Source of the DNA: Antarcticibacterium sp. 1MA-6-2
GTDB lineage: Bacteria; Bacteroidota; Bacteroidia; Flavobacteriales; Flavobacteriaceae
NCBI RefSeq assembly: GCF_021535135.1
Contig: NZ_CP091036.1
Span: forward strand, 3,906,001-3,970,000
DNA length: 64,000 nucleotides
Reading direction: 5' to 3'
Position numbers and translations under genes: made by a program. How positions within the stretch are numbered: position 1 is the first letter of the stretch; each line of letters begins with the position of its first letter. This document shows positions 1 through 64,000 of this stretch, in pieces. The notes under the pieces were generated by a model. The model did no database searches, was not told the DNA's origin, and saw nothing but the letters and a program-made list of their open reading frames with translations.

Positions 1-1123
1 AGACTTTCTCGTAATTGGTTTTCGCTTTTTGTAAATCACCGAGTTCCTCGTAAGCCATTCCTAGATTAGAGTAGGCATCGAAAGATTCCGGATGTGCTTC
101 AACATTTGCTTTAAAGGCATTTACGGAATATTCCTTTAGATCCTCTAATCTTAAAAAGGCATAACCAAGGTCTGTTAAAGCGTACTCATTGGTCACTTCA
201 AATCTATACTTCGTTGATAAATCTTCAAAATAAGTCACCGCCTTGCTAATGGCAGCATCAGGACCTCCCTGCGCCAATATTTCCTCTTTTGTCCTGGGAA
301 TTTCATATTGTATAGGCTCAAAAATATAGCGCAAACCAAAATAGATGGAAGGCAGGCCAATAGAGCCGTGGGATTCTTCGGGCATTGGTTCATATTTAAA
401 GCTAAGGTCGGCCTCTTTATGAGCATTTATATAATTGTTAAATTCTCCACTTAGTTTAAGAACGTTCCCGCGCATGTTTCCTTTATTTTCATTTGCCAGG
501 GTCATATAGAAGGTTCCGCTTAATTTGGAAGGAGTAGTGAAAACATCTTCAAAATTTGTTGAAATCAATTCATTCGGGAACCATAAACTTGGGCTTATGG
601 TGAGATAAGCATCAAATAATTGCGGATTTTTAAAAAAGGTATACACATTGAAAAGTCCTCCCAAAGAATGTCCAACGATGATCCGGTGTGTTGCGGCTTT
701 ATAATTATTTTCTACGTGAGGAATTAATTCTTTTTCGAGAAAAGCCATAAAGTTAAGAGCTCCCCCGGTTGTTCCCATTCTTTTCCGCTCTTCCGCACTC
801 AATTCAGGAGATTCAGGGGTAAGGTCACGGGTACGACGGGTATTTCTTATCCCTACAATAATCCTTTCAGGGATAAGCCTGTTTAATTGCAGATATTCCA
901 CACTTCCTACAGCATGAGAGAAATTATAATAGCTGTCGAGTAAATAAAGAACTGGATAAGTTTTGTCTGAATCCCCATAATTTTTAGGTAGGTGAATTTC
1001 CAGGATCCGGTCTTCTTTTAATAATTCTGAATAAATGGTTTCGGTTTTACCTATTTTAATGTCCTTTTGAGAATAGCTTGAAAAACTGAATAAAATAAAC
1101 GTGAACAGAAGGCTGAATTTCAT
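1..1123 (-). CDS. Secreted esterase (Fes/IroE-like alpha/beta hydrolase) with C-terminal TPR, 3' end off window
   Basis: The start is at 1123 and the frame stays open to the left edge, so the C-terminus is missing. The protein begins with a signal peptide (MKFSLLFTFILFSFSSYSQ). An esterase domain of the PF00756 type follows: a VLYLLDSYYNF segment, the nucleophile elbow GHSLGG near residue 155, and a likely catalytic His in PEESHGS near residue 250. The last part visible (SFDAYSNLGMAYEELGDLQKAK) is a TPR unit. The family hydrolyses esters, including siderophore and acyl esters, in the periplasm or at the surface; the substrate here is unknown. The frame has no interruption. Confidence 0.85.
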   Translation of the reverse strand, partial: MKFSLLFTFILFSFSSYSQKDIKIGKTETIYSELLKEDRILEIHLPKNYGDSDKTYPVLYLLDSYYNFSHAVGSVEYLQLNRLIPERIIVGIRNTRRTRDLTPESPELSAEERKRMGTTGGALNFMAFLEKELIPHVENNYKAATHRIIVGHSLGGLFNVYTFFKNPQLFDAYLTISPSLWFPNELISTNFEDVFTTPSKLSGTFYMTLANENKGNMRGNVLKLSGEFNNYINAHKEADLSFKYEPMPEESHGSIGLPSIYFGLRYIFEPIQYEIPRTKEEILAQGGPDAAISKAVTYFEDLSTKYRFEVTNEYALTDLGYAFLRLEDLKEYSVNAFKANVEAHPESFDAYSNLGMAYEELGDLQKAKTNYEKV

Positions 1124-1223
1124 GGATGGTTTTTAAATTTATTTCACTTGCCGAAATGTTCCGGATAGCTCGAACTTTTAAAATATATAGATGTTAATAG
1201 AGAGAAGGAAGTTTTAACTTTCT

Positions 1224-1439
1224 TTAATTCAAAAGTTCCTCCTGATAGGTTTTATGATCAAGATGCTCGTGGATCGTTTCTCGAAAAGTTCCATCCGGTT
1301 TAAATGAATATGTAATTCCAATATCAGCAACAGCCATTTGGATATCCTCGACCTGATAGTTTCCTTCAATTGTCTGGGCGTTCATGCAAATCGAAATTGC
1401 AAGAAAGCTAGTAAAAAGGATAAAATTTGAGCTTTTCAT
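1224..1439 (-). CDS. Small secreted protein, unknown
   Basis: Encodes 71 residues with an N-terminal signal peptide ending near MNAQ, then a short domain containing IEGNYQVEDIQ and FKPDGTFRETI. This pattern recalls the first strands of lipocalin-like proteins common in Bacteroidetes, but the chain is too short for a full barrel. It may be a truncated copy. It is the first of the run of small minus-strand genes with palindromic upstream spacers. No function is assigned. Confidence 0.55.
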   Translation of the reverse strand: MKSSNFILFTSFLAISICMNAQTIEGNYQVEDIQMAVADIGITYSFKPDGTFRETIHEHLDHKTYQEELLN

Positions 1440-1475
1440 ATTTGAATTATTTCAGTGTTTAATGTTTTAATTCTC

Positions 1476-1491
1476 GTATAAAAACAGTTCG
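1476..1491. repeat. Spacer repeat copy 1 (GTATAAAAACAGTTCG)
   Basis: Lies about 38 bp upstream of the start of the 71-residue gene. Nearly the same sequence recurs at 3880-3895 and 5637-5652, each 32-38 bp upstream of a minus-strand start codon. Confidence 0.5.
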
Positions 1492-1621
1492 ATCTGGCAG
1501 CGTGATTATCCTCAACTTTTGACCGTAGGGAGCAGCAAACATCATTCAGGCGTTGCACGTAAGAAATTAATCATGGCTTAAAGATTATTTAATATAACAT
1601 AATTATTTGGGGTGCTCACAA

Positions 1622-8110: not shown

Positions 8111-8625
8111 TTACCCCAACTCCTTCGTGATCCATTTCTCAAGTGCTGCATCATCCATCTTCAATAGTTTCTCCACCTTCTTGTCCTTCTTCAGTCTTTT
8201 TTCTTTATTCATCGCATAAACCTTGAGCAGACTTTTAAAGCTAAGCTTTATTGGCGAGTACGGCATTATCTTTTTCAGCAGGATTCTCGAGGGCAAAGCG
8301 GGTCCAGCCGCCAAGGAAGGCCATTAGCAACTCAGGGTTTTTCTCAGTGTGATCCATCTGGAAGGGGAAAATGGCTATGGAAAAGTCAGGAACACCGCTC
8401 ATATATTTCATTAGGAACTTACTGGTTTTTTCCCTTTTTTCCGGCTGTTCATTAACAGGAGTATTTTCCAGCCAGGTGATGCTTAGCAAGAACAGTGGGT
8501 TGATATTCACGGTAATCGTCAGCAGTTTCAAGTTTTACCTGCTGTGGGACTTCAAATTCCTGCGCCTGGGAAATTCCGCAGGTGCTAATAAATGCAAGAA
8601 TGAATTTGTAGATGATGATCTTCAT
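8111..8625 (-). CDS. Secreted helical protein, unknown; broken at two altered RCCGGY sites
   Basis: Reading from ATG 8625: signal peptide MKIIIYKFILAFISTCGISQ, then QEFEVPQQVKLETADDYREY. The frame then breaks at 8481-8487 and 8240-8246, where GCCGGC appears to be rewritten (GCTAAGC and GCTTAGC on the coding strand). Restoring both gives one 170-residue protein: ITWLENTPVNEQPEKREKTS, then FPFQMDHTEKNPELLMAFLG, then a basic helical C-terminus (KSLLKVYAMNKEKRLKKDKK). The total length, 515 nt, equals 171 codons plus the two inserted bases. No family is recognised. Confidence 0.7.
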
Positions 8626-13143: not shown

Positions 13144-14789
<1,646 letters not shown>

Positions 14790-14887: not shown

Positions 14888-15162
14888 TTACACAATTGCA
14901 AGAATATCGTCTTCCCGCATGATTAGATAATCTTTCCCTTCCAGTTTTAGCTCGGTACAGCGTATTTTCCATAAAGAACTTCATCCCCGACTTTCACGGT
15001 CATGTCGTGCTTTTTGCTGCCTTTACCAACAGCTACTACTGTTCCTTTTTGTGGTTTTTCTTTTGCTGTTTCAGGAATGTAAATACCAGAAGCGGTTTTA
15101 GTCTCTGCGGCTGCAGGTTCAATAACAACCCTGTCTGAAAGAGGTTTAATGTTTAAAGCCAT
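14888..15162 (-). CDS. groES: Co-chaperonin GroES, one base missing at an altered RCCGGY site
   Basis: Caps the GroEL chamber. The N-terminus ([20 protein letters not shown]) and mobile loop ([18 protein letters not shown]) are normal. At 14957-14961 the expected GCCGGT of [20 protein letters not shown] reads GCTGT, a one-base loss that introduces an early stop. Reading on in the other frame gives the usual C-terminus (DILAIV) and stop at 14888. The 275 nt plus one base equals 92 codons. It precedes groEL by about 100 bp, the usual operon order. Confidence 0.95.
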
Positions 15163-18700: not shown

Positions 18701-20144
18701 CTACTCACTACTCAATCCAACCGCTTTCCCTTTCAAAGTTGCACTCGTACAGTCAGTAATCTCAACCATTACGAAATCCCCGACTTTGTAATGCTCTTTA
18801 GGAAACACTGCTACGGTGTTTTGTTCTGTACGGCCGCTCCATTCAAGGTCAGATTTCTTTGATTCTTTTTCTATGAGGACCTCTACTGTTTTTCCAAGGA
18901 ACTGTTGGGTTCTGTAAAGGCTGTGTTCTCTTTGCAGGGCTACTACTTCAGCAAGCCTTCTTTTCTTCACTTCTTCGGGTACATCATCTTCCAGTTTTCT
19001 GGCAGCCATGGTTCCCGGTCTTTCAGAATAAGCAAACATGAATCCGTAGTCGTACTTCACATATTCCATTAACGAGAGGGTATCCTGGTGATCCTCTTCA
19101 GTTTCAGTAGGAAATCCAGTGATCATATCCTGGGAAATGGCACAATTGGGAATAAGTTTTTTAATGTTATCGATGAGGTTGAAATATTCTTCGCGGGTAT
19201 GTAACTAGGTTCATCTCCTGCAGGATCCTGTTGCTTCCGCTTTGCACGGGCAAATGTATATAGTTGCAAATATTTTTATAAGCCGCCATGGTCTCGATCA
19301 CATCCATCGTCATATCCTGGGGATTTGAAGTAGAGAATCTAATTCTCATCCTGGGATGTGCCTCTGCTACAAGCCTTAGAAGAGTGGCGAAATTTGTCGC
19401 GGTGGCTTTTTGGATTTCCGAGGCATTTTTATAATCTTTTTTGAGACCACCACCGTACCACAGGTAACTGTCTACATTTTGACCTAATAAAGTGATCTCT
19501 TTATAGCCTTTAGCGGCAAGATCGTTTACCTCTTCAAGGATGCTTTGAGGATCCCGGCTGCGTTCCCGGCCGCGGGTGAAGGGTACTACACAAAAAGTAC
19601 ACATATTATCACAACCCCTGGTAATGGATACAAAAGCTGATACTCCATTGCTTTGAAGCCGTACGGGAGAAATATCTCCATAAGTCTCTTCTTTGGAAAG
19701 GATCACATTTACAGCATTGCGCCCTTCTTCAACTTCGTTGATGAGGTTTGGCAAATCTTTATAGGCATCTGGTCCTACAACAAGATCAACGATTTTCTCC
19801 TCCTCCAGGAATTTACTTTTTAATCTTTCGGCCATACAACCTAAAACCCCAACTTTCATCTTCGGGTTAATCTTCTTTACGGCATTGTATTTTTCCAGTC
19901 TTTTGCGTACCGTTTGTTCTGCTTTGTCTCTAATGGAGCAGGTGTTTACCAACACGAGGTCTGCATCCTCCAGCCGGGAAGTTGTATTAAAACCTTCTTT
20001 TTGAAGAATGGAAGCCACGATCTCACTGTCGCTAAAGTTCATCTGGCAACCGTAACTTTCAATAAAAAGTTTGCGGCTGTTTTCCAGCTTAGGTTCCAGT
20101 ACGAGTGTGTTTCCCTGTAGCTTTTCGTCTATAATCTTCTCCAT
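18701..20144 (-). CDS. miaB: tRNA-2-methylthio-N6-dimethylallyladenosine synthase MiaB, one frame break
   Basis: A radical-SAM enzyme that adds the 2-methylthio group to i6A37 of tRNAs. The N-terminal UPF0004 domain carries [22 protein letters not shown] and GVLGCMAER. The radical-SAM cysteines are in [15 protein letters not shown]. The TRAM domain is at the C-terminus ([15 protein letters not shown]). The frame breaks at 19204-19210, where [12 protein letters not shown] calls for ACCGGT but ACCTAGT is read. With that single extra base removed the gene has 481 codons, normal for the family. Confidence 0.95.
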
Positions 20145-21669: not shown

Positions 21670-24201
21670 ATGACGAAGAATTTAGTGATTGTGGAGTCTC
21701 CTGCCAAGGCTAAAACCATCGAAAAATTTTTGGGAAAAGATTATACAGTAGCCTCAAGTTTCGGGCATATTGCAGATCTTCCTACCAAAGAATTAGGGGT
21801 AGATACCGAAGGGAATTTCACACCTAAATATATAGTAAATAAAGATAAGAAGGATGTTGTAAGTAAGTTGAGGAAACTTGCAAAGGGTGCAGAGATGGTG
21901 TGGCTGGCCAGTGATGAGGACCGGGAGGGAGAAGCTATTGCCTGGCACCTTGCAGAGGAGTTGCATCTTGATAAGAACAAAACCAAACGAATCGTCTTTC
22001 ACGAGATAACAAAGTCTGCGATATTGCGGGCTATCGACAATCCTCGGGCTATCGATTATAACCTTGTTAATGCCCAGCAGGCAAGAAGGGTCTTGGATAG
22101 GCTGGTAGGATATGAACTTTCTCCTGTACTGTGGAGAAAGGTAAAAGGAGGACTTTCCGCAGGAAGGGTACAATCAGTTTCAGTGAGGCTTATTGTAGAG
22201 AGAGAAAGGGAAATCCAGGAGTTTAAGGCTGAAGCTTCTTTCAGGATCGATGCTGAATTTACCAATGAGGAAGGGAAAACTTTTAAGGCTAAACTTCCGA
22301 AGAATTTTGACACAAAAGAAGAGGCTGAGGAGTTTCTTCAGCAGAATATAGGAGCAGCTTTTAAAGTTGCCGACCTTTCTACCAAACAAAGAAATCCCCG
22401 GCACCACCATTTACAACTTCCACTTTACAGCAGGAGGCGGCAAGAAAGCTTTATTTTTCAGTAAGTAAAACAATGACTATGGCTCAACGTCTTTACGAGA
22501 GCGGTCATATTACTTATATGAGAACAGATAGTGTAAACCTTTCTGAAGACGCAAGAAAAGGAGCTAACAAAGAAATTCTCCAGGCTTACGGTGAGAAATA
22601 TGCGAAGTCAAGGCAATTTAAAGGTAAGTCTAAAGGTGCTCAGGAAGCTCACGAGGCTATAAGGCCTACCAATTTTGCAAGTCATACCGTGAGGGCCGAT
22701 CGCGACGAAGAGCGGCTGTATGAATTGATATGGAAACGTGCTATTGCTTCTCAAATGAGTGAAGCCTTGCTGGAACGTACAAATGTAAAAATTGAAGCAG
22801 ATAAACACGATAAGAATTTTACTGCTAATGGGGAAGTGCTGAAGTTTGACGGATTCCTTAAAGTTTACCTGGAAGGAAGTGATGAAGAAGACGAGGAACA
22901 GGAAGGAATGTTACCTGCCTTAAAAGTTAATGAAAGACTTCAAAATAATTATATAACCGCCACCGAAAGGTTTACTAGACCTCCATACCGCTATACCGAA
23001 GCGTCTTTGGTGAAGAAGCTTGAAGAACTTGGGATTGGGCGACCCTCTACTTATGCACCTACAATATCTACAATCCAGAACCGAAATTATATTGAAAAAG
23101 GCTCTATAGAGGGAACCGAAAGAAGTTATTCTCAATTCACTTTAAAAAATAATAAGGTGACTGAGAAAGAACTTATGGAAACCGTGGGTAGCGACAAAGG
23201 AAAACTTGTTCCCACTGCAGTGGGAATGGTAGTAAATGATTTCCTGGTGAACCATTTTTCTAATATTCTTGACTATAATTTCACGGCTAAAGTAGAGCAG
23301 AGCTTTGACGACATTGCCGAAGGAAATGAGGAATGGACAACGATGATGAGGGATTTTTATTCCGATTTTCATCCGCAGGTAGAAGATGTCGCCAAGAATG
23401 CCGACAGGGAAGTAGGGGAACGTATATTAGGTGAAGATCCTGAAACCGGAAAGCCAGTAAGTGTACGTTTGGGAAAATTCGGACCTATGGTGCAAATAGG
23501 ATCTGTGGAGGATGATGAAAAACCCCGGTTTGCAGGTTTGACTCCGGAGCAGAGTCTGGATTCAATTACCTACGAGGAGGCAATGGATCTTTTTAAACTT
23601 CCGAAGGAAATAGGGGAGTACGAGGGAGAATCTGTTGAGGTTAATAATGGCAGGTTTGGACCTTACGTACGCTACGGCAAGAAGTTTGTCTCTCTGGATA
23701 AAGGAGAGGATCCCATGAGCGTTGACATGGACCGGGCGCTGGAATTAATTGAGGCCAAAGAAAAGGCAGATGCTCCCATTCATACTTATGAAGGGGAGCT
23801 TAGTTCAAAAAGGCGTGGGACGGTTTGGCCCATTTCTTAAATGGAATAGCATTTTTATCAATGTCAATAAAAAATATGACTTCGACAATCTTTCTATAGC
23901 CGATATTGAAGAATTGATCGAGGATAAAAAGAAGAAGGAGAAAGAAAAAGTTATCCAGCATTGGGAAAATGAAGGAATAAGAATTGAAAAAGCGCGTTGG
24001 GGGCGCTCTAATATTCTAAAGGGTAAGACAAAAATTGAATTACCTAAAACTGTTGATGCATCTAAACTTTCCCTGGATGAGGTGAAAGAAATGCTGGAAA
24101 AGAAGACTAAGAAACTAGCGAAAAAGAAAACCGCTGCAAAGAAAACTACGGCAACAAAGAAAAAGACAACTTCAAAAAAGACCACCCCCAAAAAGAAGTA
24201 A
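21670..24201 (+). CDS. topA: DNA topoisomerase I, two frame breaks
   Basis: Type IA topoisomerase relaxing negative supercoils. The Toprim part has LVIVESPAKAKTIEKFLGKD and SDEDREGEAIAWHL. The catalytic region has YMRTDSVNLS with Tyr nucleophile near residue 270. C-terminal repeats have GKFGPMVQIG, NGRFGPYVRYG and KGVGRFGPFLKWN, followed by a Lys-rich tail (KKTAAKKTTATKKK). The break at 23798-23804 has GCTTAGT where GCCGGT (E-P-V) fits. The other, near 22390, has AAACAAAG where AAACCGGCAAAG (K-P-A-K) would fit, a four-base loss. With both corrected the gene has 845 codons. Confidence 0.95.
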
Positions 24202-36552: not shown

Positions 36553-36560
36553 TTTTTAAT

Positions 36561-40141: not shown

Positions 40142-40220
40142 TTCCCAAAACTACTATTTCCCTTATGAATTAAAAATATTCCTTAGTTTAAATTATGGCC
40201 ACAGATTTAGAGCCTTTTGA

Positions 40221-40248: not shown

Positions 40249-40287
40249 TATGGATACCTGTTTAAATAACTGCCTCGGCCATTTCCG

Positions 40288-40934: not shown

Positions 40935-40938
40935 ACCC

Positions 40939-41493: not shown

Positions 41494-41687
41494 CTATAGC
41501 TAATATACAACATTTCTGAACATTACACCAGAAGAAGAGCTACTAATCCCATATAAAATATGACAATGTTCATTTAACGCATTAGTGAACATTGCGGAAA
41601 CAACAAGCTCGTATACAATTAATCAGAGCTTTAAAGTTGTCTGGGAAAATAATACCTTGTAGTCCTACAACATTAACCAAATTCACC

Positions 41688-42122: not shown

Positions 42123-42152
42123 CTGAAAATTAAAGTTAATTGCCACATACTA

Positions 42153-42524
42153 ATGAAAAATGTGTTCCCAATCTTCCTTCTTTTTATAAGCCTGACCTGC
42201 GGAGCGCAGACATATAGGAGCACTCACACAGTTTATTTGCCTCAACAGATAAGAGAAGAAATCCAACGGGATGTAATTATTAGACAGGATATTATCCTCG
42301 TCAAGAGTTTTGTAGACGCTACCAATGTGGATAACCAAGCCTGGAAGATATACAAGCGTTGGGAAGAAGATGAAGACGAGGTATTTCACCTAATTAGTAT
42401 GGATGAATCCCATTCAATTCGAATGTATATATCTATAAACAATCCGCAGTATATAGAAGTACACCAACCTTTGGAAAAGGGAAACATACAAAGACTACAT
42501 TTAATTCTGGATATTGTTCAATGA
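42153..42524 (+). CDS. Secreted protein, unknown, 123 aa
   Basis: A signal peptide (FPIFLLFISLTCGAQ) and a short domain with IREEIQRDVIIRQDIILVKS and SIRMYISINNPQYIEVHQP. Probably co-transcribed with the lipocalin-like gene 30 bp upstream. No family recognised. Confidence 0.55.
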   Translation: MKNVFPIFLLFISLTCGAQTYRSTHTVYLPQQIREEIQRDVIIRQDIILVKSFVDATNVDNQAWKIYKRWEEDEDEVFHLISMDESHSIRMYISINNPQYIEVHQPLEKGNIQRLHLILDIVQ

Positions 42525-42750
42525 CTTTCGTATTTTGTTTACCACGGCAGATAATACCTATGCTATAATCTCTTCATTTTGGACCCTTAAGTTTCCTTTT
42601 CTATTTTATTGCAGTATTGATTTTTAACTTAGAAATTAATGAAGTGCTTAATCACGTCTCATTGTCTTCTTAAATTTAATACTTTAGTGTTTCGGAATCC
42701 CTATATTCCCGCTATTCATTATTTATAATTTTGCCATTAACAGGCCAACA

Positions 42751-43317
42751 ATGAAGGAAATCAAGGAGAGTTACACAAAGTACCAAGAATTATTAAAAGA
42801 TACCAAGAACACGTCCACACCTTTAATAATGCTTGATGAAATTAAAAGCAACCATCCTAATACCCGTACTAAAGAAGTGGATGTGTTACCAGTTAATATA
42901 CCTGAAAAAATGAAATTAGTTGTGGAATCGAAAATTGGTAATAAGAGGGATTTTAAATTTAGACTAATGGCTCCTGGGTATATTAATAAGCCATTTTTCA
43001 GATTTGATTCTGCTGGGCAGCCGCATTATAACAGGATTCCAGGTGTTGAGTTACCACAGCAAAAAGTTTATACTCCGCACTTTCATAAATTCGATGCTGA
43101 AGGAAGAAACATCGCATATAAAACGGAAGCCCTTAATAAAGAAACCGAACGTGAAGCTTTATTAAATGATATAACCTTATGTATGGCTCACTATAGTGAT
43201 GAATCACAAACATACTATATGTCTAAAAATTATTTGAAGGTTTTACAAACTCCACCTACAGAATTAGATTTTGACTTAAATAATGATGACCCAACTGATG
43301 GGGTAGAGTATGTCTAG
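42751..43317 (+). CDS. DUF6978-like protein, first gene of a two-gene module
   Basis: The 188-residue protein shows a motif order like that of DUF6978: FFRFDSAGQPHYNRIPGVEL and VYTPHFHKFDAEGRNIAY, that is R-x-D-x-x-G-x-PH-x-N, then H-x-H, then a conserved polar turn. The assignment is from memory of the family pattern. It overlaps the next gene by 8 nt, which shows they form one operon. Pairs like this are found on mobile elements and in defence islands; a toxin-antitoxin or antiphage role is only a guess. Confidence 0.55.
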   Translation: MKEIKESYTKYQELLKDTKNTSTPLIMLDEIKSNHPNTRTKEVDVLPVNIPEKMKLVVESKIGNKRDFKFRLMAPGYINKPFFRFDSAGQPHYNRIPGVELPQQKVYTPHFHKFDAEGRNIAYKTEALNKETEREALLNDITLCMAHYSDESQTYYMSKNYLKVLQTPPTELDFDLNNDDPTDGVEYV

Positions 43318-44137
43318 ATTAGAAAAAATTGCCCTGAATGTTCAGGATAGCTTTGGTCAGTTGTGGTCGTTTACGTTACGGGGAAAAGATACAATTGAAA
43401 TAAGTACCCCGTACTCTACAACTACTAATAAATTTGTATCAATATTTGTAACCGAAAGAGGCGGGAAATACATTGTTTCCGATGGAGGTCTTTTAAATTC
43501 CGAAGCCTATGAATCTCATTTGGATTATGAGAATCAATGTTTGCTTAAGATAATTTACCACTTCGAAGCCTATTATGAGGTCAAGAGGACACTAGATAAA
43601 CAAGGGATAAAACACTACTACAAACTAACAATCGAAGAGAGATTAGTACCCAACCTGGTATACGAGTTGGCTCAGTTTGTTTCCGTGTGTGCATCTTCGG
43701 CAACTGTGCAATTTGAAGATGAAAAGGAGAAAGAGGAACGGGAATCCTTCAGGACCAAAGCCACATCATATATTAGTTCAAATTTTCCAAGGTACCAAAA
43801 AAGATTTAGAGCTCCCTTGGACAAAAAAGATTTCCGCTCCGTTCGATTTAGTGCCCTGTTAGAAAGGAAAAACAGGTTAAGCATAATTACCTATGTTACT
43901 GGTTCTACCCCTTCAAATTTCAGGAACAGTATTGCAAGTGCTAATATGAATTTTGAGTTAGCTTCCTTATCTAGGTACAATGAATACATCGAAAACAAAA
44001 TAGTCTTGGTAAATAACACTGCAGATGGATATGTACAAAATCAAATTAGCAAACAGCTCAACCTGCTTGAGGAACATATTGGTCGTGAAGCTATTAATTG
44101 GTCAGAAAGGGAAAAACTCATTCCAATTTTAAATTAA
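43310..44137 (+). CDS. DUF1828-like protein, second gene of the module
   Basis: The N-terminal 80 residues carry the DUF1828-like pattern (IEISTPYSTTTNKFVSIFVT, RGGKYIVSDGGLLNSEAY). A C-terminal region about 140-275 resembles DUF1829-type sequence (FRAPLDKKDFRSVRFSALLE, SIITYVTGSTPSNFRNSIAS). Length 275 residues with no membrane segment. It overlaps the preceding gene by 8 nt. Function unknown. Confidence 0.6.
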   Translation: MSRLEKIALNVQDSFGQLWSFTLRGKDTIEISTPYSTTTNKFVSIFVTERGGKYIVSDGGLLNSEAYESHLDYENQCLLKIIYHFEAYYEVKRTLDKQGIKHYYKLTIEERLVPNLVYELAQFVSVCASSATVQFEDEKEKEERESFRTKATSYISSNFPRYQKRFRAPLDKKDFRSVRFSALLERKNRLSIITYVTGSTPSNFRNSIASANMNFELASLSRYNEYIENKIVLVNNTADGYVQNQISKQLNLLEEHIGREAINWSEREKLIPILN

Positions 44138-44223
44138 TAGTTGAAATTTGGAAAAAAATGAAACTAAGACTTGATTGGTTTTATAAATATTAAATTAAAT
44201 AGGCCAATTTAAATTTACAGGGT

Positions 44224-44577
44224 ATGACATTTAACAATAAGAAAAGACTGGTAATAGACAAGCTAAAAAAAATTGATAGTCATCTTTTCATTGAATCCAT
44301 TGAAAAAAACCTGGATGTACTGGATAAGAGTATTAGACGATTTGGTTTTATCGGGATAATTAATGAAAATAATTCAGAGGAAGACATCATTCAAATAGAG
44401 TACTTCTTTGAAAGTTCACCAAACACGACCTATCCCAAAAATTTTCTAAATAATATAAATAGAGTTAAAATTCCTCCTGAACTTATCTTACAGGAAAAAG
44501 GTAATAAACTTAAAAGCTCTATTATTGGGACTGAAAGCGTAATCTATAACTACAGGTTGATACCAAAAGGAGATTAA
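44224..44577 (+). CDS. Element protein, unknown, 117 aa
   Basis: Soluble protein beginning MTFNNKKRLVIDKLKKIDSH. It has a Lys-rich helix and a beta portion (EDIIQIEYFFESSPNTTYPK; SSIIGTESVIYNYRLIPK). Lies 86 bp after the DUF1828-like gene, same strand, and could be its third member. No family recognised. Confidence 0.45.
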   Translation: MTFNNKKRLVIDKLKKIDSHLFIESIEKNLDVLDKSIRRFGFIGIINENNSEEDIIQIEYFFESSPNTTYPKNFLNNINRVKIPPELILQEKGNKLKSSIIGTESVIYNYRLIPKGD

Positions 44578-44854
44578 AAAATTTGCCTTTAGGTCGTGAC
44601 TTTATTTACCATTTATCATCATCTATGGGTTTGTTACGTGAAAAGCACCTTCATTCCATTTAGGAGAATATTGGCCTGAGGGGACAAACACATTTCTCCA
44701 AATCATAAATTTTTAATCTACCTTATTGTCTTTGAATTCTACTATAGTCCTAATATTCCAGGATGTAGAAGGCGTTGTAATAGTTTGTAAAATGAAATTT
44801 ATTACAATTTGATTATCTGTTTCACTATTATTATTAATGCCAAAGCACCTCAGA

Positions 44855-44878
44855 GATCCTGCCGGACCCGGCAGGATC
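44855..44878. terminator. Perfect 11-bp hairpin
   Basis: GATCCTGCCGG/CCGGCAGGATC with a 2-nt loop, immediately after the stop of the minus-strand 84-residue gene. Confidence 0.7.
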
Positions 44879-44880
44879 AC

Positions 44881-45135
44881 CTAGTTTTCATTCCATTTGA
44901 AGCTAACATATTTATCCATTAGCTTTCCTTCAATAAATTCACGCTTTTCTTTAATGGAGTTGGTAGCCTTGTCAAACACAAGCTCTACAAAAAATTTGTC
45001 AATAGCATACAAGGCAAAAGTTTTAGACCCGTTGGACACAGAATCAACAAAAGTGCCCCTATTAAAAACTAAATAGAACTGCTCCACTTCGGGAAGTAAC
45101 TTAAATTCATAAAGGGTATAACTTCTTTCTTCCAT
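44881..45135 (-). CDS. Small element protein, unknown, 84 aa
   Basis: Reads MEERSYTLYEFKLLPEVEQF and ends KLMDKYVSFKWNEN. A compact alpha/beta domain with no signal peptide. The phrase QFYLVFNRGTFVDSVSNGSK suggests a small conserved sheet. I recognise no family. Confidence 0.5.
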   Translation of the reverse strand: MEERSYTLYEFKLLPEVEQFYLVFNRGTFVDSVSNGSKTFALYAIDKFFVELVFDKATNSIKEKREFIEGKLMDKYVSFKWNEN

Positions 45136-45303
45136 ACCAGGCAGGGTAAAAAGGGCGTGAATTTTATTTCAATGTTTTGATACTCTGTTCAAGGTAAGAG
45201 ATTGTTGATAATCTGGCAGCTTTTTAATAAACATTTAGCAACTTAAACTGGTGTAAAGCACTGAAATTAAGTTACTTGTAGTTGATATTAAAATATAAGA
45301 GCT

Positions 45304-45765
45304 ATGCCTTTAGAAAACAAATTTTCGTGGAGACCTAATGACAATGGACCCATAACCAATCTCAGGTATGACTTAGAAGCATCTAAATGGCTGAACTCAG
45401 TAAACAAAGCTAAGAGCAGATTACCCCGAAGTAATTTTGCAGGTGATTTAGGCTTTTTTGGAGCAGTATTAACCATTCCCTTATGTCTCATAATTTTTAT
45501 TGTTTTAATACCAATTGCGCTTATTAGAGAAGTTATCGGTTACAATATCAAATTACTACCTGGAGATGAACCTACGGGATGGGTGAAGAAAAATGATATC
45601 TATCGGGTGGATTACACTAGAGCTAATGAGTTAAAAGCGAAGCATGAGAGAAAAAAACGTAAAACTCAGTGGGAAGACCTTACCTCTAAAGAGCAAGAAA
45701 TGGTGAGATATGTACAAGCTGAAACAGCTAAGTTGTATGACAAACCTAATCTTAAATCTAATTAG
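45304..45765 (+). CDS. Single-pass membrane protein of the element, unknown
   Basis: Of 153 residues, about 55-85 form a hydrophobic stretch (AVLTIPLCLIIFIVLIPIAL). The N-terminal half is basic and the C-terminal half is charged and helical. No motif beyond that. Confidence 0.5.
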   Translation: MPLENKFSWRPNDNGPITNLRYDLEASKWLNSVNKAKSRLPRSNFAGDLGFFGAVLTIPLCLIIFIVLIPIALIREVIGYNIKLLPGDEPTGWVKKNDIYRVDYTRANELKAKHERKKRKTQWEDLTSKEQEMVRYVQAETAKLYDKPNLKSN

Positions 45766-45969
45766 GACACTCCCGATTTTAATTCAAATTGTGATATCAC
45801 GGTAAAGACAATGTAGCTTGCTATGTATCTAATGTGTAGGAATTTTATTAAATTTAATTTGAATGGTGAAGACCAAACGGACCAGTCCTTCTGCGGAAGA
45901 AATCTCTGGACCCTGTTGAAAGCTTTAGTTATCCCGTCCGATATAACATACGGGTGATATCAAAAAAGT

Positions 45970-46674
45970 ATGGATAAAGAAGGACTGGAAGAATGGCAAA
46001 ATCGCTGGAAGGAGGTATTTGATAAAATTAGTAAATCAATGCCTGGTTTGTTGGAAGCAGGCAAAATATTGGAAGAAGAATCTCCTGAAGCTTTTTGGCA
46101 ATTGTGCAGGTACGGATGGTACTTCGGCTATGATTCTCTTCCTAAAACTCCCGTAGAATTGGCAAGGGAAATTAAGAAAGGCAATCAAAGGGAGGTAGAT
46201 GATTTTCTAATAAAATATTATGAGGATGAATTGGAAAGTATAGAGAGACGTTTGGTCGGAAGGTATCCGCATAGAACTATGGTCTTACAAGAAGCATTTC
46301 AAAACCATAGAGAAAAACGGTATTACTCATCTATAACTTTATTCCTGACACAAGTAGATGGTGTCTGTAAAGAGTTAACTGGGAACATTTTCTTCACAAC
46401 AGAAGAAATTAAGGGGGTGAAGATTAGGAAGCCAAAAATCGCAAAAGCATTTAATGAAGAGGAGGTATTTTTCAAGCCATTCTTGGTGCCTTTGAAGGAA
46501 ACTTCTTCAATAAATTCTCACTGGACCAAATTAAATAGTTTTCCATTAAGACTCAACAGACACGAAATACTTCACGGGGAAGATTTCGATTATGCCTCAC
46601 AAATGAATTCATTAAAGGTTATTTCTTTATTGAATTATATTAGCGACATTTTGACTTATGAGGCTAAACAATAA
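45970..46674 (+). CDS. Element protein, unknown, 234 aa
   Basis: An all-helical soluble protein (LEEWQNRWKEVFDKISKSMP; ERRLVGRYPHRTMVLQEAFQ; YYSSITLFLTQVDGVCKEL) ending INSHWTKLNSFPLRLNRHEI then LHGEDFDYASQMNSLKVISL. The last motif (R-H-x-I-L-H-G) resembles the conserved core of proteins with HEPN-like or abortive-infection-like helical folds. That is suggestive only and I would not name it. Complete, no frame error. Confidence 0.5.
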   Translation: MDKEGLEEWQNRWKEVFDKISKSMPGLLEAGKILEEESPEAFWQLCRYGWYFGYDSLPKTPVELAREIKKGNQREVDDFLIKYYEDELESIERRLVGRYPHRTMVLQEAFQNHREKRYYSSITLFLTQVDGVCKELTGNIFFTTEEIKGVKIRKPKIAKAFNEEEVFFKPFLVPLKETSSINSHWTKLNSFPLRLNRHEILHGEDFDYASQMNSLKVISLLNYISDILTYEAKQ

Positions 46675-46763
46675 AGGCTCAGGAATGATGTCATTAAAAG
46701 ATAGGATTGTAGATTTGATATGGCTGAAGTAACACCATCAGCTGAAATTTTAATTATAGTATC

Positions 46764-47069
46764 GTGATGATAAATCCGAATCAATATAGCCACAGAATAA
46801 GTATTTTGTTTAATGATTACCTTCAGGGACAATTAGAACTTACCGAATTTATTGAAAGGTTACGTACCATTGAAGATATGCATAAGCAAGCTGTTAATGA
46901 TACCGATTCAGATTCTGGATTATGGTTTAAATTTTCAGAAGATGATACGATAGTATCAACAATTAATGACTTAGAGAGGGACTTAGCGGATTCAAACCGA
47001 AATTACACTCTTAAGCGAATGAGAGAAGCTTTAAACCTTGACCAAGAGTTATCTGTTCATTATTCATAA
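46764..47069 (+). CDS. Element protein, unknown, 101 aa
   Basis: A small helical acidic protein starting MMINPNQYSHRISILFNDYL and ending NLDQELSVHYS. Its tandem start codons (ATGATG) make the first or second Met equally likely. It lies 90 bp after the 234-residue gene. It could be an immunity or antitoxin-like protein by size and charge, without direct evidence. Confidence 0.45.
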   Translation: MMINPNQYSHRISILFNDYLQGQLELTEFIERLRTIEDMHKQAVNDTDSDSGLWFKFSEDDTIVSTINDLERDLADSNRNYTLKRMREALNLDQELSVHYS

Positions 47070-47384
47070 TTGTAACGCACATAGAATGAAATTATAGCAG
47101 TTGGGCAAACGTGCCCGATGTTTCTTTAAACATCTAATTTAACCAGAAAATTCGGCTTAGTCGCTTAATTATTACTAGTGAAGATTGTTTAAAAAAAAGG
47201 GAATTTAAATTTAACCTGGATTTTATAACGGCCTTCGAATGGATACCTGCTTTTACGGGGTATAAAACAGCTCTAAAAATAGTAAAACCCCGAAATTGCA
47301 ATATTTGCATCCCAGGGTTTACACTGTCATATACTAAGGTTATAGGTATCAAAAAGGACAATAAAGGTACCGCTATGTGGGTTT
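47070..47384. other. Intergenic stretch, no gene seen
   Basis: 315 bp between the 101-residue gene and the minus-strand helix-turn-helix protein. A 75-codon open frame on the minus strand has no Bacteroidetes-like features, so I do not call it. Confidence 0.35.
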
Positions 47385-47939
47385 TTATTTGTCCATATAG
47401 TTACGGGTTAGTGCTCTTGATTTCACCTTCTCAACCTGAAGACGATAGTCAGTTTTTGGAATATAATTGTTGATAATCTCATCTACTGGTTTCTTTAATT
47501 CCTGAACAGACAAATCACTCACCAAATGGGTGTGATTTATACCTCCCTTGGTCTGCTCAATAACGTAATCAAAGTTACCATTCGGAAAAGCTTCTTTTAT
47601 TTCCGTTGCTAATTGTACATGATATTCCCCGTCATAATTTTCACGGGTAATCCATGTCACCAAAGTATTCCAGTCTTTGTTGAATAACGTTTTAGTTCTT
47701 CGCTTTATAGGAACAAACTCCTGAAGTAACTGCCGATGTATATACCATTTGTTATCTTTTTTGTATAACAGGCTCGGCACATTAGCATACTTTATTCTCA
47801 GTTTAGCTATTCTATACCTGAAGGTTCTAAGGCAAATTCCCAGCTTTGTCATTACCTCTGTTGAAGTATAATACTTCTTATTTTTAAGATTCTCATAAAA
47901 ATACTCTAATTGCCTTTCGTAATTTTCCTTTTCAGTCAT
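47385..47939 (-). CDS. Possible HUH-type replication or relaxase-like protein
   Basis: The 184 residues start with a helix-turn-helix-like segment (YTSTEVMTKLGICLRTFRYR), then in the second half FPNGNFDYVIEQTKGGINHT and HLVSDL. The NHTHLV string fits the His-hydrophobic-His motif of HUH endonucleases used for rolling-circle replication. A Tyr-containing helix follows (IINNYIPKTDYRLQVEKVKS). The assignment is by motif only. Located close to the right end of the element, where a replication gene would be expected if the excised circle replicates. Confidence 0.45.
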   Translation of the reverse strand: MTEKENYERQLEYFYENLKNKKYYTSTEVMTKLGICLRTFRYRIAKLRIKYANVPSLLYKKDNKWYIHRQLLQEFVPIKRRTKTLFNKDWNTLVTWITRENYDGEYHVQLATEIKEAFPNGNFDYVIEQTKGGINHTHLVSDLSVQELKKPVDEIINNYIPKTDYRLQVEKVKSRALTRNYMDK

Positions 47940-48590
47940 ACTCTTCGTGTTTGATTTAATTTATTATTAAATGCAAAAACCTCATCGGCTTATGCAACGC
48001 ACAGGACAAGGGGACCAATTCCTCCACCCTGTGAAAACATATATATCCACGAGATGCAAAAAGGAAAGTTTTTTATTTTTCATTTTTTTCATTTTTTTTA
48101 TAATTAATTGAACTTGAATAATTTGCACCACAAAAAAAATTAATTTTTTTTTGAACGGCCTCTTAGCTTCTCCGAAAGGCACAATTTCTATTTGCACCCC
48201 TACAAAAAGATTTTGAGTGATTGGATTCGGAATTTCAGACATAAACCTGGATATCCATTATCCTGGGTACCTAACCCCTCCCCGTAAGCGGGGATACGGG
48301 AGGAAGGCCCTCCACGGCAGGGAGGGAGGGGAAAGTCATAACTCATTTGTTTACCTTGGTTTTCAGATTGGGTACATCGGAAAGCCCAAAATACCAATGA
48401 GTTGTTTGACATCAAGCTTTTAATACTTCGGGAATTGAGGGGATGAATACGAATTTTATGATATGACGTACGGAATTAAAAATCTATGGTTCTCCTATCT
48501 TTTGTCCAATACTATACAAACTCTATTCATAATTTAAAAGTTTAGCGATGGTCCTTAAATCTCTTATGAAATCGTTCGACATTTCAATTT
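47940..48590. other. Non-coding right arm of the element
   Basis: About 650 bp with no gene. It has an AT-rich tract (48060-48150) and a GC-rich imperfect palindrome around 48268-48333 (CCCCTCCCCG ... GGGAGGGAGGGG). These may be replication or recombination signals. Confidence 0.4.
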
Positions 48591-48601
48591 TTCCCGCTAC
48601 T
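48591..48601. repeat. Right attachment site (attR core)
   Basis: TTCCCGCTACT is identical to the tRNA 3' end copy at 34917. The following bases (AAAGACAAGG, then a hairpin) look like the original downstream flank of the tRNA. Confidence 0.8.
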
Positions 48602-48610
48602 AGCAAAGAC

Positions 48611-48636
48611 AAGGCTTCACAGAAATGTGGAGCCTT
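48611..48636 (+). terminator. Original tRNA terminator, displaced
   Basis: AAGGCTTCAC and GTGGAGCCTT pair (with one G-T) around AGAAAT, followed by TCTTTTTT. It sits 10 bp past the right attachment site, just where a terminator for the tRNA should be without the element. Confidence 0.75.
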
Positions 48637-51798: not shown

Positions 51799-52934
51799 TT
51801 ATTCTTTCGAAACATACTCAGATATATCCTTGGTTAGGGTAAACTTGAAATTGGCCAAAGTGTAATACAGCATACCCATTGTAATTCCAACAAGCGCATA
51901 TTCTATTTTTGGCAAATAAGTTGATGCTATGGTTATAAAAATACATACTAGTGTATTAATTGTCATACTTTTACGGAAGGGAGGAATAAAAACAACATAA
52001 ACGGTTTGTTTTCCGATGTAAAAAAAGCTCATTCCCGTAATCGCCAGAATTCTAAACTCATTCATATTTAGATCATTTAAAATAGCATGTCGAATCACAT
52101 TAGCCAAGATTACAAAACCCATAGCTAAAAACAAGTGGGAATACAACATAGGAAACCCGTTGGTCATAGATTTAATCCGTTCATTGACATGAAAACTATC
52201 ATAATATATCCACCAAATAAGGCCAATCATAATAAAACCCGTAACTGCTGCCACAATACTTAAAATGTCCCAATTGACACTTCTTAAAGTGCCTGTAAGA
52301 CTTATAATAGATTCTCCTAGAAGGATTATTGAAAGCAATCCTACTCGTTCTACCATATGTTCGCGATGGACTGGTTTTGGTTTCTCCAAATTCCGTGTAC
52401 TTACAAGATAAATACCGAGCATTTCAAATAGAATTCCGGAAACCAAAATAATTTCCCTTAAGGGGGTTTCCATGGAAATGGAAATAGCTGAAATTCCCGT
52501 GCCTAAAAGAATTATATAACCACTTTTCCTAGCATAACTTACAGAGTGCTTAAGTCTTGATTAGATGCTCTAAAAAATAAAAACACCAATATTAACTTTA
52601 TAACCGTATAAAAACCGACAAAGGCAGGATAATCCTGAAAGAGATCATCTCCAAAAAATGCAGACATGATTATCATCAAGAACATAATTGTAAGACTAAA
52701 GATTCTTTCAGTCCTATTATCATGATTGAATCGATTGGAAAATAAGGTATGTACGATCCAGATCCACCAGACTATAATAAATTGTAAAGGGAATAGCCAA
52801 ATCTGTTCAGGAGTTAAATGGTTATTATGAGTATGCGCCAGATTATGAGTCACTACTCCAATGCTGGATACAAAAACAAGGTCGAAGAATAGTTCGAGCC
52901 AGGTAGCATGTCGGTGTTTTAGAAAATATTCCAA
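51799..52934 (-). CDS. ltrA: Low temperature requirement protein A family (LtrA), frame broken
   Basis: A polytopic membrane protein of the LtrA family: HRHATWLELFFDLVFVSSIG near the start, then helices (FPLQFIIVWWIWIVHTLF; IFSLTIMFLMIIMSAFFGDD), REHMVERVGLLSIILLGESI in the middle, and more helices to the C-terminus. The frame breaks at 52548-52555 where ACCGGC of ASNQDRHSVSY reads ACTTAAGC. Removing the two extra bases gives one 378-codon gene. An IS256 element lies directly upstream, so the usual N-terminal lead-in may be lost. Confidence 0.85.
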
Positions 52935-56147: not shown

Positions 56148-57063
56148 TTAAAAATTTTCTTTCGTTAATGCGGCATTGACCATGGCGCTAAGCGAGATTT
56201 CCATTTGCCACGACAGTAGCCACAGAACGCATCATTGTTGAATTGTCCCCACAGGCGTAGATACCCTCAATAGTTGTTTGTTGTTGTTCATTGACCTTGA
56301 TATGGCCATATTCTGTTAATTCACAGCCTAAAGAAATCGGGATGTCTGAATGTTGAGTAAAGGGAAACCCTGCATAAATCGCATCAAAAGACGCTTTTTC
56401 TCCATTACTAAAGAGGACCTTTTGGAGATACCCATCCTGATGCTCAATTTCTGAAATTTCAGTTTCAACGATAGCTATCTTATGAGACTCCAGTTTTGCT
56501 ATTTGATCGGCTGTGAAATTGGCTTTGCCAGTCGTCAGTATGGTTAAATTATCAGTTAGGTTGTTCACCAGGGAGGCGAGGTGAAAAGCACGTTCCCCAT
56601 TGGCCATAATACCTGTTCTCTTATTTCGAAATTCGTAGCCGTGACAATAAGGGCAATGGATCATTGAAATTCCCCAACATTCCTGGAACCCTTTTATTTC
56701 GGGTATTAGATCCTTTACTCCGGTGGCCAAAATGATCTTTTTGGTAAAATATTTTTCTCCCGATTCAGTGAAAACAGAGAAACCATCTTCATTTTTTTCC
56801 GCAGAGACCGCCAAATCATTGGCAAATTCTACTGTCCTGTATTTTAAAACCTGTTCTTTGGCTTTTGCCGCAATTTCCTGAGGTGGTACTCCATCCTGAG
56901 TTATAAAATTATGCGAATGCGGCGTCTGCCTGTTACAGGGTAGACCGCTATCAATGATCAAAACTTTTCTCAGGGAACGCCCTAAGGCCATCGCTGCTGA
57001 AAGTCCGGCGTAACTTCCGCCAACAATAATTACTTCATAATTTTTAGTGTTCATAATTTTCAA
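56148..57063 (-). CDS. Thioredoxin reductase-like FAD/NAD(P) oxidoreductase, frame broken near its end
   Basis: The 304-residue chain has FAD motif YEVIIVGGSYAGLSAAMALG, the CPYCHGYE redox pair (Cys-x-x-Cys; PYC in place of the usual ATC), and AGFPFTQHSDIPISLG. The frame ends at VATVVANGNLA because GCCGGC at 56187-56193 reads GCTTAGC. Past it, GAMVNAALTKENF completes the family C-terminus with stop at 56148. Length 916 nt minus one equals 305 codons. Confidence 0.85.
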
Positions 57064-60474: not shown

Positions 60475-61732
60475 TTACCTTAAAGACTTATGCAGAAGAG
60501 CTCTAAAAACGAATCCTGTAGCAAGTAATTCAATACCCATAAGGATCACATTGAAAGGCAGGGAAACGGACAATATTAAACATCCTGCCAACCCGCAAAA
60601 TGGAATTATTCTCCCGTACAGCCTTTCCTTGCGAGGCTGTTTTAGGGCAGCAAAATTTGTAATGCTGTAATAAAGTAAAATCGTAAAGCTGGCCGACCTT
60701 ACTATAAACTCAAAATTTCCCCGCAGAGTAAGGGCTAATATTACAGCACCTGTTAAAAATATTGCGGTGTGCGGTATTCTATACTTCGAGTGTACGTTAT
60801 TCAGAAATGGGGGCAGGTCCTTTCTTCGTCCCATCGCCAACATCATTCTGCTTATCCCCAGAATTTGACTAAGTAACACTCCCAGCATTGCAGTAGAAGC
60901 ACCAATGGTGGTTATAACTTTAATACCGGGGGTTGTCAAAGCTTCTGCAACTAATTGTAAAGGCGAGGTGCTATTTGCCATTTTTTCTACTCCAATCACT
61001 CCTACTGCTACCACTGAAACTGCTGCATAAAGTATAATAGCAGTTACTATTGTAATTATAATTGCTTTGGGTATGGTTTTTTTAGGTTCCAATACTTCTT
61101 CTGCAAGAGTTGCTATCCTGGCGTAACCTGTGAAGGCGAAAAATAGTAGAGCAGCGGCCTCTGCAATTCCCGATATCCCAAAGGGAGCAAAAGGTTCAAA
61201 ATTTTGAGGCTGAATATTTGGTATTCCGCTTATAATTAAATAGAAGAGCGAAAGAAGGGTGAATGCTACAATAACAATATTTAGTGTTCCTGCCTTTTTA
61301 ATACCCAGGAGGTTTGCAATGGTGAGAAAGATTAATACAAATATTGAGAGGACCAATGGTGAAGCTACGGGGACTAACTGATAGAAATAACTGCCGAGCC
61401 CAATGGCAACTACTCCTGCTGCTGACAATTTGCTAATTAAAAACATCCAGCCAGCAGAAAAACCAAAAGCAGGATTTATTAATCTGTAACCATATTCATA
61501 GGTTCCACCCGATTGAGGCTAAATAGCAGCCAGTTGAGCAGAATTCAACGCATTGCAAGTCGCAATAAGGCTAAGCAGCCAATAGACCTACAATAAAAGC
61601 AGGGCCCGATACCCCTGCTGCCACACCAGTGACCACAAAGATTCCAGCCCCAATTATGGCACCCAAACCAACGGCCACAGCATCTTTTAGGGTTAAATTC
61701 CGAAGTAATTCAAATTTAAGTTTTTCCTCCAT
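60475..61732 (-). CDS. APC-family amino acid permease, broken at an altered RCCGGY site
   Basis: Start at 61732: MEEKLKFELLRNLTLKDAVA, then VGLGAIIGAGIFVVTGVAAG (the family's GAIIGAGIF), later helices with GYARIATLAEEVLEPKKTIP and NNVHSKYRIPHTAIFLTG. At 61570-61576 the frame breaks (GCTTAGC for GCCGGC, in LLAAGLIATCNAL). A TAG near 61520 stands where AAI-S/Y-PQSGGTYEYG is expected; two offsetting homopolymer errors would explain it. With the one extra base removed, 419 codons. Confidence 0.88.
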
Positions 61733-62207: not shown

Positions 62208-62210
62208 AAT

Positions 62211-62773
62211 CTAAAAAATTAATGGGAACAATAGGTGAACCATTAGTAGACCACCAATAAAAAATCCAATAACAGCAATTAGGGAAGGCAACTGTAGATT
62301 ACTAAGACCAGAGATGGCGTGACCGGAAGTACAGCCGCTAAGCATACCTTGCACCAAAACCAATAAGAAGGCCACCAATGAGCAAAATCAAGAGAGCTTT
62401 AGGATCGGTAAAAGCATCATTTGCAAAAAGTTCGGTGGGAAGGTAGGCTTCTCCTGCACTTTCAAAGCCCATACTTTCCAGAGTAGAAACAGTATCGGGG
62501 TTAATTTTTACGGCAGTATCTGTGCTCAGGGAATTTGCGGCTATAAATCCGCCTATTATAGCACTTAAGCAACGACTACCAGGTTCCAGCGCTGGGATTT
62601 CCAGTCAAAATTAAAAAAGTCAAATCTCTTTCCGGCACTTAAGCTATAGTACACATAGTGCGCAGGTTTGATGACATTCCAAAATTTTTACCTCCAAACA
62701 AAAGCAGGAACATTATGGCTGCAATTAAGGGTCCTCCAATATACCAGGGCCAGGGTTCTAAAATCCAATTCAT
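62211..62773 (-). CDS. YeeE/YedE-type sulfur transport protein, small form B, three frame breaks
   Basis: Start at 62773: [57 protein letters not shown] and [20 protein letters not shown] (the conserved Cys in GGCTSGH). All three breaks are rewritten sites: 62637-62644 and 62563-62570 (GCTTAAGT for GCCGGT) and 62337-62343 (GCTTAGC for GCCGGC). The 563 nt minus five inserted bases make 186 codons with a normal end ([11 protein letters not shown]). It precedes form A by 3 nt. Confidence 0.88.
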
Positions 62774-63131
62774 TATATCTATTTTATGGCTGCAAAGAAA
62801 ACACGATTTTAATAAGGAGACAGTAACAAATGTTACAGTGCGACGCCCAAATCTCCGGGCTTTTTAGGTTTTAAAAAACTCTGCGCAGGAAATTATGATA
62901 TCAAAAATTAAAGGGTAAGTGAGTTAATAAAGTTACTAATGTGAAAAAAATTTGAAGTTAGCTTCCCGCACCACAAGTGATATTTAATTTTATTCTTTTA
63001 GGCACTTTCGTTCCAGGACACAAATTACAAACAAAACTTATAAGCATAGGTTAAATGAATAAATTAAACCTAATTGAATTAACTAATGCATTATTTTTGG
63101 TTATTGACCTTATTTAGAAAGTTTTATAAGT
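62774..63131. other. Divergent promoter region
   Basis: 358 bp between the divergent YeeE pair and the racemase gene. No gene or hairpin seen. Confidence 0.4.
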
Positions 63132-63818
63132 ATGAAAAAAATTGGTTTAATAGGAGGCACCTCCTGGCATTCTACAATAGTTTATTACCGTCTCATAAAT
63201 GAGATGGTAGGAGATAAAATGGGAAAGCAGGCAAATCCCGAATTACTTATTTATAGCCTGAATGTGGAGCTTATGAGGGAGCATAATGTAGAAAAGATCA
63301 ATAATAAGTATCTGGAAATTGCAAAAACACTGCAAACAGCTGGAGCCAAAGCTATACTCATCTGTGCCAATACACCGCACCTGGTGTACGATTTTGTACA
63401 ACCGAAAATAAATATTCCAATTCTACACATTGCCGATGCTATTGGGGGTGAAGCCAGAAAAAAAGGCCTGTCAAACCTTGGATTACTCGGCACCCGGCCA
63501 ACTATGACGGGAGATTTTATTTCTTCTCCTTTAAAAAAGAGATACGATATAGAAACCATAATTCCGGATAGTGAGTACATAGATGGAAACCACGATTTTA
63601 TTTCAAATGAACTTACAAAAGGAATTTTTACTGAAGAGGCAAAGAAGTTTTATCTGGAGCAAATGAGATTGCTGCGGACAAAAGGCGCAGAGGGAATTAT
63701 CCTGGGTTGTACTGAGCTTCCAATGCTTGTTGATCAAAAAGATTTTGATCTGCCTTTGCTTGCTACCACAAATCTTCATGCACAAATGGCTGCCAATTTC
63801 ATCTTAGAGGAGAATTAG
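63132..63818 (+). CDS. Aspartate/glutamate racemase family protein
   Basis: 228 residues: KKIGLIGGTSWHSTIVYYRL at the start, first catalytic Cys in AILICANTPHLVYD, second in EGIILGCTELPMLVDQ. This is the two-Cys signature of PLP-independent amino acid racemases of the aspartate racemase group. Intact; start 12 nt into the transcript-like leader. Confidence 0.9.
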   Translation: MKKIGLIGGTSWHSTIVYYRLINEMVGDKMGKQANPELLIYSLNVELMREHNVEKINNKYLEIAKTLQTAGAKAILICANTPHLVYDFVQPKINIPILHIADAIGGEARKKGLSNLGLLGTRPTMTGDFISSPLKKRYDIETIIPDSEYIDGNHDFISNELTKGIFTEEAKKFYLEQMRLLRTKGAEGIILGCTELPMLVDQKDFDLPLLATTNLHAQMAANFILEEN

Positions 63819-63915
63819 CTAGTTCTGTACGGCTTGTGGAAATACCTTAGAATAGCATTTCATTTTTTGCCCCGAATGATATAAACTGATTTAAAGAAAT
63901 TTAAAAATCCGGATT

Positions 63916-64000
63916 ATGAGCTACTATTTTTCAAAAGTCCTTGACAAATCCTTTGAAGAGACAATGGGTATTATTACAAAAGAACTCAAAGAAGAAGGAT
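63916..64000 (+). CDS. Start of a DUF302-family protein, cut by the window edge
   Basis: The ATG at 63916 opens MSYYFSKVLDKSFEETMGII and TKELKEEG, the opening strand and helix of DUF302 proteins. Only 28 codons are visible. Confidence 0.65.
   Translation, partial: MSYYFSKVLDKSFEETMGIITKELKEEG

Follow-up and report, generated by a model that had tools for sequence, protein, structure and literature searches.

The window considered here, 64,000 nucleotides of Antarcticibacterium sp. 1MA-6-2 (bases 3906001-3970000 of a single 4,383,004-base contig), carries a type II restriction-modification (R-M) system with a 5-methylcytosine (m5C) DNA methyltransferase on an island beside a tRNA gene, and is scattered with short strings at many of which the reading frames of genes break. 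The best named protein matches place the organism close to Gillisia and Antarcticibacterium. CCGG occurs in the window 122 times, never in an RCCGGY context. The initial annotation had reported this hexamer missing and replaced by garbled forms at 18 protein-defined sites, as a modified base confusing a base-caller would give; the absence holds, and all 18 named strings are in place when both strands are read (Table 1). The R-M system in the same window, which is the probable cause, had been overlooked.

The endonuclease gene of the system overlaps the methyltransferase gene by 23 nt, and genes for a Vsr mismatch endonuclease and a tyrosine recombinase adjoin them. Two copies of a direct repeat (34917-34939 and 48591-48613, identical at 19 of 23 positions) bound the island, the left copy lying at the 3' end of tRNA-Met. 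The island's flanks overlap by 23 nt in the relatives G011 and G005 and by 11 nt in G010; the right flank was not found in G003. Within the island, GCTTAGC stands at 36271 near one break of a recombinase region split over three open frames, and this region is perhaps another victim of the misreading proposed below. By profile search the methyltransferase is the sole PF00145 match in the whole genome. No genome match was found for PF01555 (N4-methylcytosine, m4C, methyltransferases), phosphorothioate and deazaguanine systems not having been searched for, and PF02384 (N6_Mtase), a family whose enzymes methylate adenine, gave seven matches. The endonuclease has no match in the Pfam copy used and no solved relative by sequence; its first structural model was poor (mean pLDDT 60.7) and its second good (84.5), with no Foldseek match at E<=0.001. 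Its family is widespread, with 66 named loci and more than 2,000 protein clusters. Among the named loci, several of which end at contig ends, 62 of 66 also carry the methyltransferase and 10 also Vsr.

Table 1. Strings, frame shifts and island features in the window. Signed numbers are differences in length (nt) or frame shifts; G003, G005, G010 and G011 are relatives.
Feature	Position	Strand	Observation
GCTAAGC	8240..8246		present; no relative aligned
GCTTAGC	8481..8487		present; no relative aligned
ACTTAAGC in groEL	13540..13547		+2 vs relatives; ACCGGC in G011
ACTTAGC in groEL	14065..14071		+1; ACCGGC in G011 and G003
ACTTAAGC in groEL	14530..14537		+2; ACCGGC in G003
ACAGC (other strand GCTGT)	14957..14961		-1 vs G011 (ACCGGC); single relative
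ACTAGGT in miaB	19204..19210		+1 frame shift
4-nt loss in topA, absent from the initial annotation	22386..22387		frame shift; ACCGGC in G011 and G003
GCTTAGT in topA	23798..23804		+1; ACCGGT in G003, GCCGGT in G010
ACCTAGGT in gldL	27092..27099		+2; ACCGGT in G011, GCCGGT in G005
GCCTAAGT in gldL	27468..27475		+2; GCCGGC in G003, GCCGGT in G010
ACTGT in gldM	28846..28850		-1; GCCGGT in G011, ACCGGT in G010
Frame shift in gldN, absent from the initial annotation	29790..29808		+2; relatives shown lack RCCGGY here
GCCGTGT (other strand ACACGGC)	31788..31794		+1 vs relatives, which lack RCCGGY here
tRNA-Met (CAT), left island end	34853..34926	+	ARAGORN
Island recombinase region, three open frames	34885..36552	-	PF07508 6.2e-06 on 34885-35928 only
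Island carrying the R-M system, 13.7 kb	34917..48613		bounded by 23-nt direct repeat
Type II restriction endonuclease, 359 aa	37900..38979	-	PADLOC REase_II 6.9e-132
m5C DNA methyltransferase, 394 aa	38957..40141	-	PF00145 5.9e-48; TIGR00675 above cut-off
Vsr mismatch endonuclease, 139 aa	40515..40934	-	PF03852 8.4e-34; TIGR00632 2.7e-46
Tyrosine recombinase, 184 aa	40939..41493	-	PF00589 6.2e-15
GCTTAAGT	52548..52555		present; no relative aligned
GCTAAGC	56187..56193		present; no relative aligned
GCTAAGC in amino acid transporter gene	61570..61576		+1 frame shift; family match below cut-off
GCTAAGC in YeeE-like gene	62337..62343		+1 vs G011, poorly matching stretch
ACTTAAGC in YeeE-like gene	62563..62570		+2
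ACTTAAGC in YeeE-like gene	62637..62644		+2

The loss extends well beyond the window. In the whole 4.38 Mb assembly RCCGGY occurs 62 times (42 ACCGGT, 19 GCCGGT/ACCGGC and one GCCGGC) against 2,141 occurrences of the same words read backwards (904, 489+549 and 199, respectively). Expected numbers were scaled from the proportion between RCCGGY and the remaining CCGG contexts in G011, the nearest relative found (79% identity over 4 kb), where 900 kb hold 930 and 2,580 of these, respectively. The window together with a 400 kb sample of the same genome (464 kb) has 6 RCCGGY and 1,158 other CCGG, with about 417 RCCGGY expected; genome-wide the expectation is about 3,900. The 400 kb sample by itself contains 6 RCCGGY, where its own pentamer counts predict about 102, and the three RCCGGY words are its three most depleted hexamers. 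The ratio of ACCGGT to its reversed word is 42/904 here and about 0.3 to 1.5 in 40 other genomes, making this assembly the sole outlier among the 41 compared. Relative to its share in G011, RCCGGY stands at 0.019 and the next lowest of 64 degenerate palindromes at 0.72; the collapse is thus limited to RCCGGY, and no other class among the 64 stands out as a second garbled motif. GTGCAC, a candidate for such a motif with 0 copies in the window against 5.7 expected, was rejected, since its depletion in the 400 kb sample does not rank within the top 40 hexamers. Many intact copies elsewhere in the assembly, which the initial annotation would have taken to speak against base-calling, were not found; the 62 that persist limit the completeness of the loss.

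Frame breaks were sought by comparing the open frames of relatives with the window without use of the 18 listed sites. The 17 clusters obtained correspond to 14 places once strand duplicates are merged, and ten of the 14 are named sites, covering 11 of the 18 (62563 and 62637 share one place). A further place, at 22387, aligns with the hexamer in two relatives, and another, at 29799 in gldN, is possibly a further garbled site. Frame shifts unlinked to the motif are those at 9385 and 20757 (poorly aligned), to which a search with G011 proteins added 6846. Alignment at the DNA level reveals three more length differences, at 14957, 27092 and 62337. Altogether, frame-breaking support exists for 14 of the 18 sites, the remaining four (8240, 8481, 52548 and 56187) having no aligned relative; at eight of the 14, one or more relatives read RCCGGY in the alignment, and support is weakest at 14957, 31788 and 62337. 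The frame-broken genes include groEL, miaB, topA, gldL, gldM and gldN. When the intact proteins of the relatives are named with NCBIfam, the initial annotation's groEL, miaB, gldL and gldM are confirmed, its YeeE gene gives a weak match, and its DUF983 candidate matches nothing. The stretch at 6846 recurs on the opposite strand at another locus of the genome (L014:9580) with an identical apparent -1 shift, and is a duplicated gene.

The association of the strings with RCCGGY was tested in both directions. Going forward from G011, none of the 82 RCCGGY sites that align with DNA of this genome is intact here, whereas other CCGG contexts are kept at 29 of 210 aligned sites (p=5e-5); control words are intact at 3/50 (RGGCCY) and 5/17 (RCATGY). 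Insertions or deletions (indels) near the site, counted where at least 16 of the 20 flanking positions match, occur at 10/42 RCCGGY and 6/93 other CCGG (p=0.008). When the window by itself is set against four relatives, the counts are 0/76 versus 25/169 intact and 22/76 versus 23/169 with indels. Going in reverse, class strings were defined from the window as RC, one of the named fillings, and GY. Among 29 class strings, 21 differ from G011 in length by a number that is not a multiple of three (17 longer, 4 shorter), and 12 of 19 do so when the ten strings listed in the initial annotation are removed; the same fillings break frame in 4/33 cases with Y..R flanks and 16/70 with mixed flanks (20/103 together). 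Outside the window, used as a hold-out, a class string is present at 7 of 16 frame-shift places and at 1.3-2% of random places, and an eighth frame-shift place (L003:11648) aligns with ACCGGT in G011. RCTGATGY was tried as a garbled form and rejected, since it is enriched (68 versus a scaled 17) but breaks frame in only 1/9 cases.

The surviving sites have a common context. In 49 of the 62 the two bases flanking the hexamer are both A or T, compared with 378 of 930 RCCGGY in G011 (p=3e-9) and 95 of 230 when ACCGGT alone is counted, this genome being somewhat richer in A+T. Such flanks fit a misreading that varies with the local word, although a flank preference of the enzyme itself may lie behind the survivors. 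Survivors as unmethylated positions shielded by proteins were also considered; word context is likelier, given the common A/T flanks and the 52 of 62 sites, a figure without a control set, that lie within open frames of at least 120 codons. Four of the survivors, all ACCGGC, lie within four copies of one repeat at 2401079-2403505 of the genome (L236 and L237).

Additional information on the methyltransferase comes from its relatives. A plasmid collection contained four at E<=1e-30, of which three (from Nostoc, Moraxella and the Geobacillus plasmid pBsrF30) adjoin endonucleases of the Cfr10I/Bse634I type, confirmed by PF07832; beside the fourth, from Rhizobium, neither of the two neighbouring open frames that were tested matched Pfam. 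The site of Cfr10I is RCCGGY, as given in the available part of PMC4081073, and strain CPW16, the carrier of pBsrF30, has m5C at RCCGGY according to an excerpt of PMC8112702. Over residues 199-330, the presumed recognition segment by our own boundaries, identities to the three endonuclease-adjacent enzymes are 70/130, 62/118 and 47/122, and with all three its conservation is roughly equal to that of the remaining protein. Local PDB matches to M.HaeIII and M.HhaI end at residue 198, before the segment begins. A homologue 65% identical to the methyltransferase carries the NCBI name NmeDIP. As the single PF00145 gene of the genome and kin to m5C enzymes of RCCGGY, the methyltransferase is, judged by its sequence, the probable writer of an RCCGGY mark, and the adjoining Vsr gene is as expected for m5C. 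RCCGGY is likely the target of the R-M family found in the 66 named loci.

These observations suggest, with a probability of roughly 87%, that the island-borne m5C methyltransferase marks RCCGGY and that long-read base-calling miswrote the marked hexamer. The enzyme would mark the site chromosome-wide; base-calling and consensus, most likely of nanopore reads, would fail to read it; and wrong strings that depend on context, often with one or two surplus bases, would replace nearly every copy. The breaks in groEL, miaB, topA, gldL, gldM and others would then be in the assembly and not in the cell. A living cell in which such conserved genes are broken is difficult to imagine, and these breaks stand in for an independent check of correctness at the motif. 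The modified base suspected in the initial annotation is thereby supported by motif specificity, frame breaks and a fitting methyltransferase; methylation itself, the marked base and the sequencing platform we infer from the assembly.

Several results weigh against this explanation. Without the flank filter, indels near RCCGGY (18/82) differ little from those near other CCGG (37/210), and four of the 21 frame-breaking class strings are shorter than G011. The excess of the named strings in 464 kb is about 100, about a quarter of the sites expected there, and true avoidance may add to the loss, the remainder being other garbled forms or true absence. Eight of the 16 frame shifts outside the window have no link to RCCGGY, a few of them sitting at short homopolymers. 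Homopolymer errors are usual in nanopore data, and the frame shifts at one-base runs that carry no class string (9385 in the window, which looks like a T-run error, L012:14813 and L021:6190) are probably ordinary cases. Finally, the precedents in the accessible parts of PMC10687267 and PMC11610573 are mainly one-base mismatches, not insertions. A mark bulkier than plain 5-methylcytosine would account for the extra bases and the erasure of about 98% of the sites, though we regard this as improbable.

Were the assembly generally poor, with indels everywhere, the motif would be coincidental. Frame shifts with no class string nearby, at 9385, 6846 and several places outside the window, agree with this, but the restriction to one motif, the dependence of frame breaking on the flanks and the 62 sites against 2,141 reversed words contradict it, leaving it scarcely any credibility. 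Selection by the cell's own restriction enzyme could instead have removed RCCGGY for real, the strings being true mutations. The 66 loci of the family are mildly depleted (666 RCCGGY versus 884 YCCGGR; RCCGGY is the rarer of the two in 40 loci, the commoner in 21 and level in the other 5; p=0.02), and the lost sites are not all covered by named strings. One of these loci, L115, a 12,358-base contig of an uncultured Oscillospiraceae on which a homologous R-M pair is found, has 1 RCCGGY, 53 YCCGGR and 108 mixed CCGG; it may represent real site avoidance, its name suggesting a short-read assembly. Avoidance does not, however, explain frame breaks in groEL, miaB, topA, gldL and gldM at the strings, and two relatives with the same R-M pair (G119 and G152) retain 492 and 1,028 ACCGGT, making real loss very unlikely. 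It is also conceivable that the misreading is real and the mark is made by another enzyme or is not m5C (m4C, phosphorothioate or a modified guanine), as the errors here are more severe than the mismatches in the accessible sections of PMC10687267 and PMC11610573 and the N6_Mtase matches represent further modification systems. Adenine marking is ruled out at GCCGGC, which has no adenine and whose loss it cannot explain. The single PF00145 gene, the lack of any PF01555 match in the genome, the kinship with RCCGGY m5C enzymes and the accompanying Vsr further count against a different mark or writer, which we consider unlikely.

If m5C at RCCGGY was misread as proposed, nearly every copy of one hexamer has been lost on paper and essential genes have been frame-broken in a species-level genome. 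Annotation, pseudogene counts, completeness scores and studies of site avoidance based on this assembly will mislead. The assembly would also record its own methylome: from a palindrome that is missing, reading frames that break there and the one methyltransferase that fits, a specificity can be proposed with no methylation assay; this three-part check could be applied to long-read-only assemblies.

Among known R-M systems, one close likeness by description is to NmeDI of Neisseria meningitidis, which according to the available text of PMC7973814 includes a Vsr as well as an endonuclease with RCCGGY as its predicted site. The same three kinds of gene, for methyltransferase, endonuclease and Vsr, occur together here as there, and the probable site is shared (PMC7973814 and PMC4081073, in part); the NmeDI endonuclease cuts on either side of its site. 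BsrFI, Cfr10I and Bse634I (pBsrF30, Nostoc sp. HK-01 and Moraxella osloensis) share homologous methyltransferases with a common recognition segment. Their endonucleases belong to PF07832, whereas the one described here does not; PF07832 was not found in this genome, in a search that also matched no control genome. EFSG_00659 of Enterococcus faecium, which places m5C on the first cytosine of RCCGGY (PMC6328761, excerpt), and VchM of Vibrio cholerae, described in part of PMC4654547 as an m5C enzyme of RCCGGY and an orphan, have the activity that is proposed here.

As regards the errors, modification-driven, motif-bound and strain-specific faults of nanopore assemblies are described in the accessible sections of PMC10687267 and PMC11610573, and whole-genome amplification removed such errors according to the former. 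The literature search found no publication on nanopore errors at RCCGGY, the available part of PMC6328761 being on another matter. A MinION paper on sea ice, PMC8548342, was set aside, its accessible text mentioning Flavobacterium gillisiae and not this organism. The motifs in those sections of PMC10687267 and PMC11610573 are GCAGC, GCTGG and RACG/CGTY, with mainly single-letter changes, whereas the present genome, as judged from its assembly, displays changes of length and a near-total loss of RCCGGY. The mechanism is a known one, seen here with unusual clarity and severity, and this is a new case with length-changing errors.

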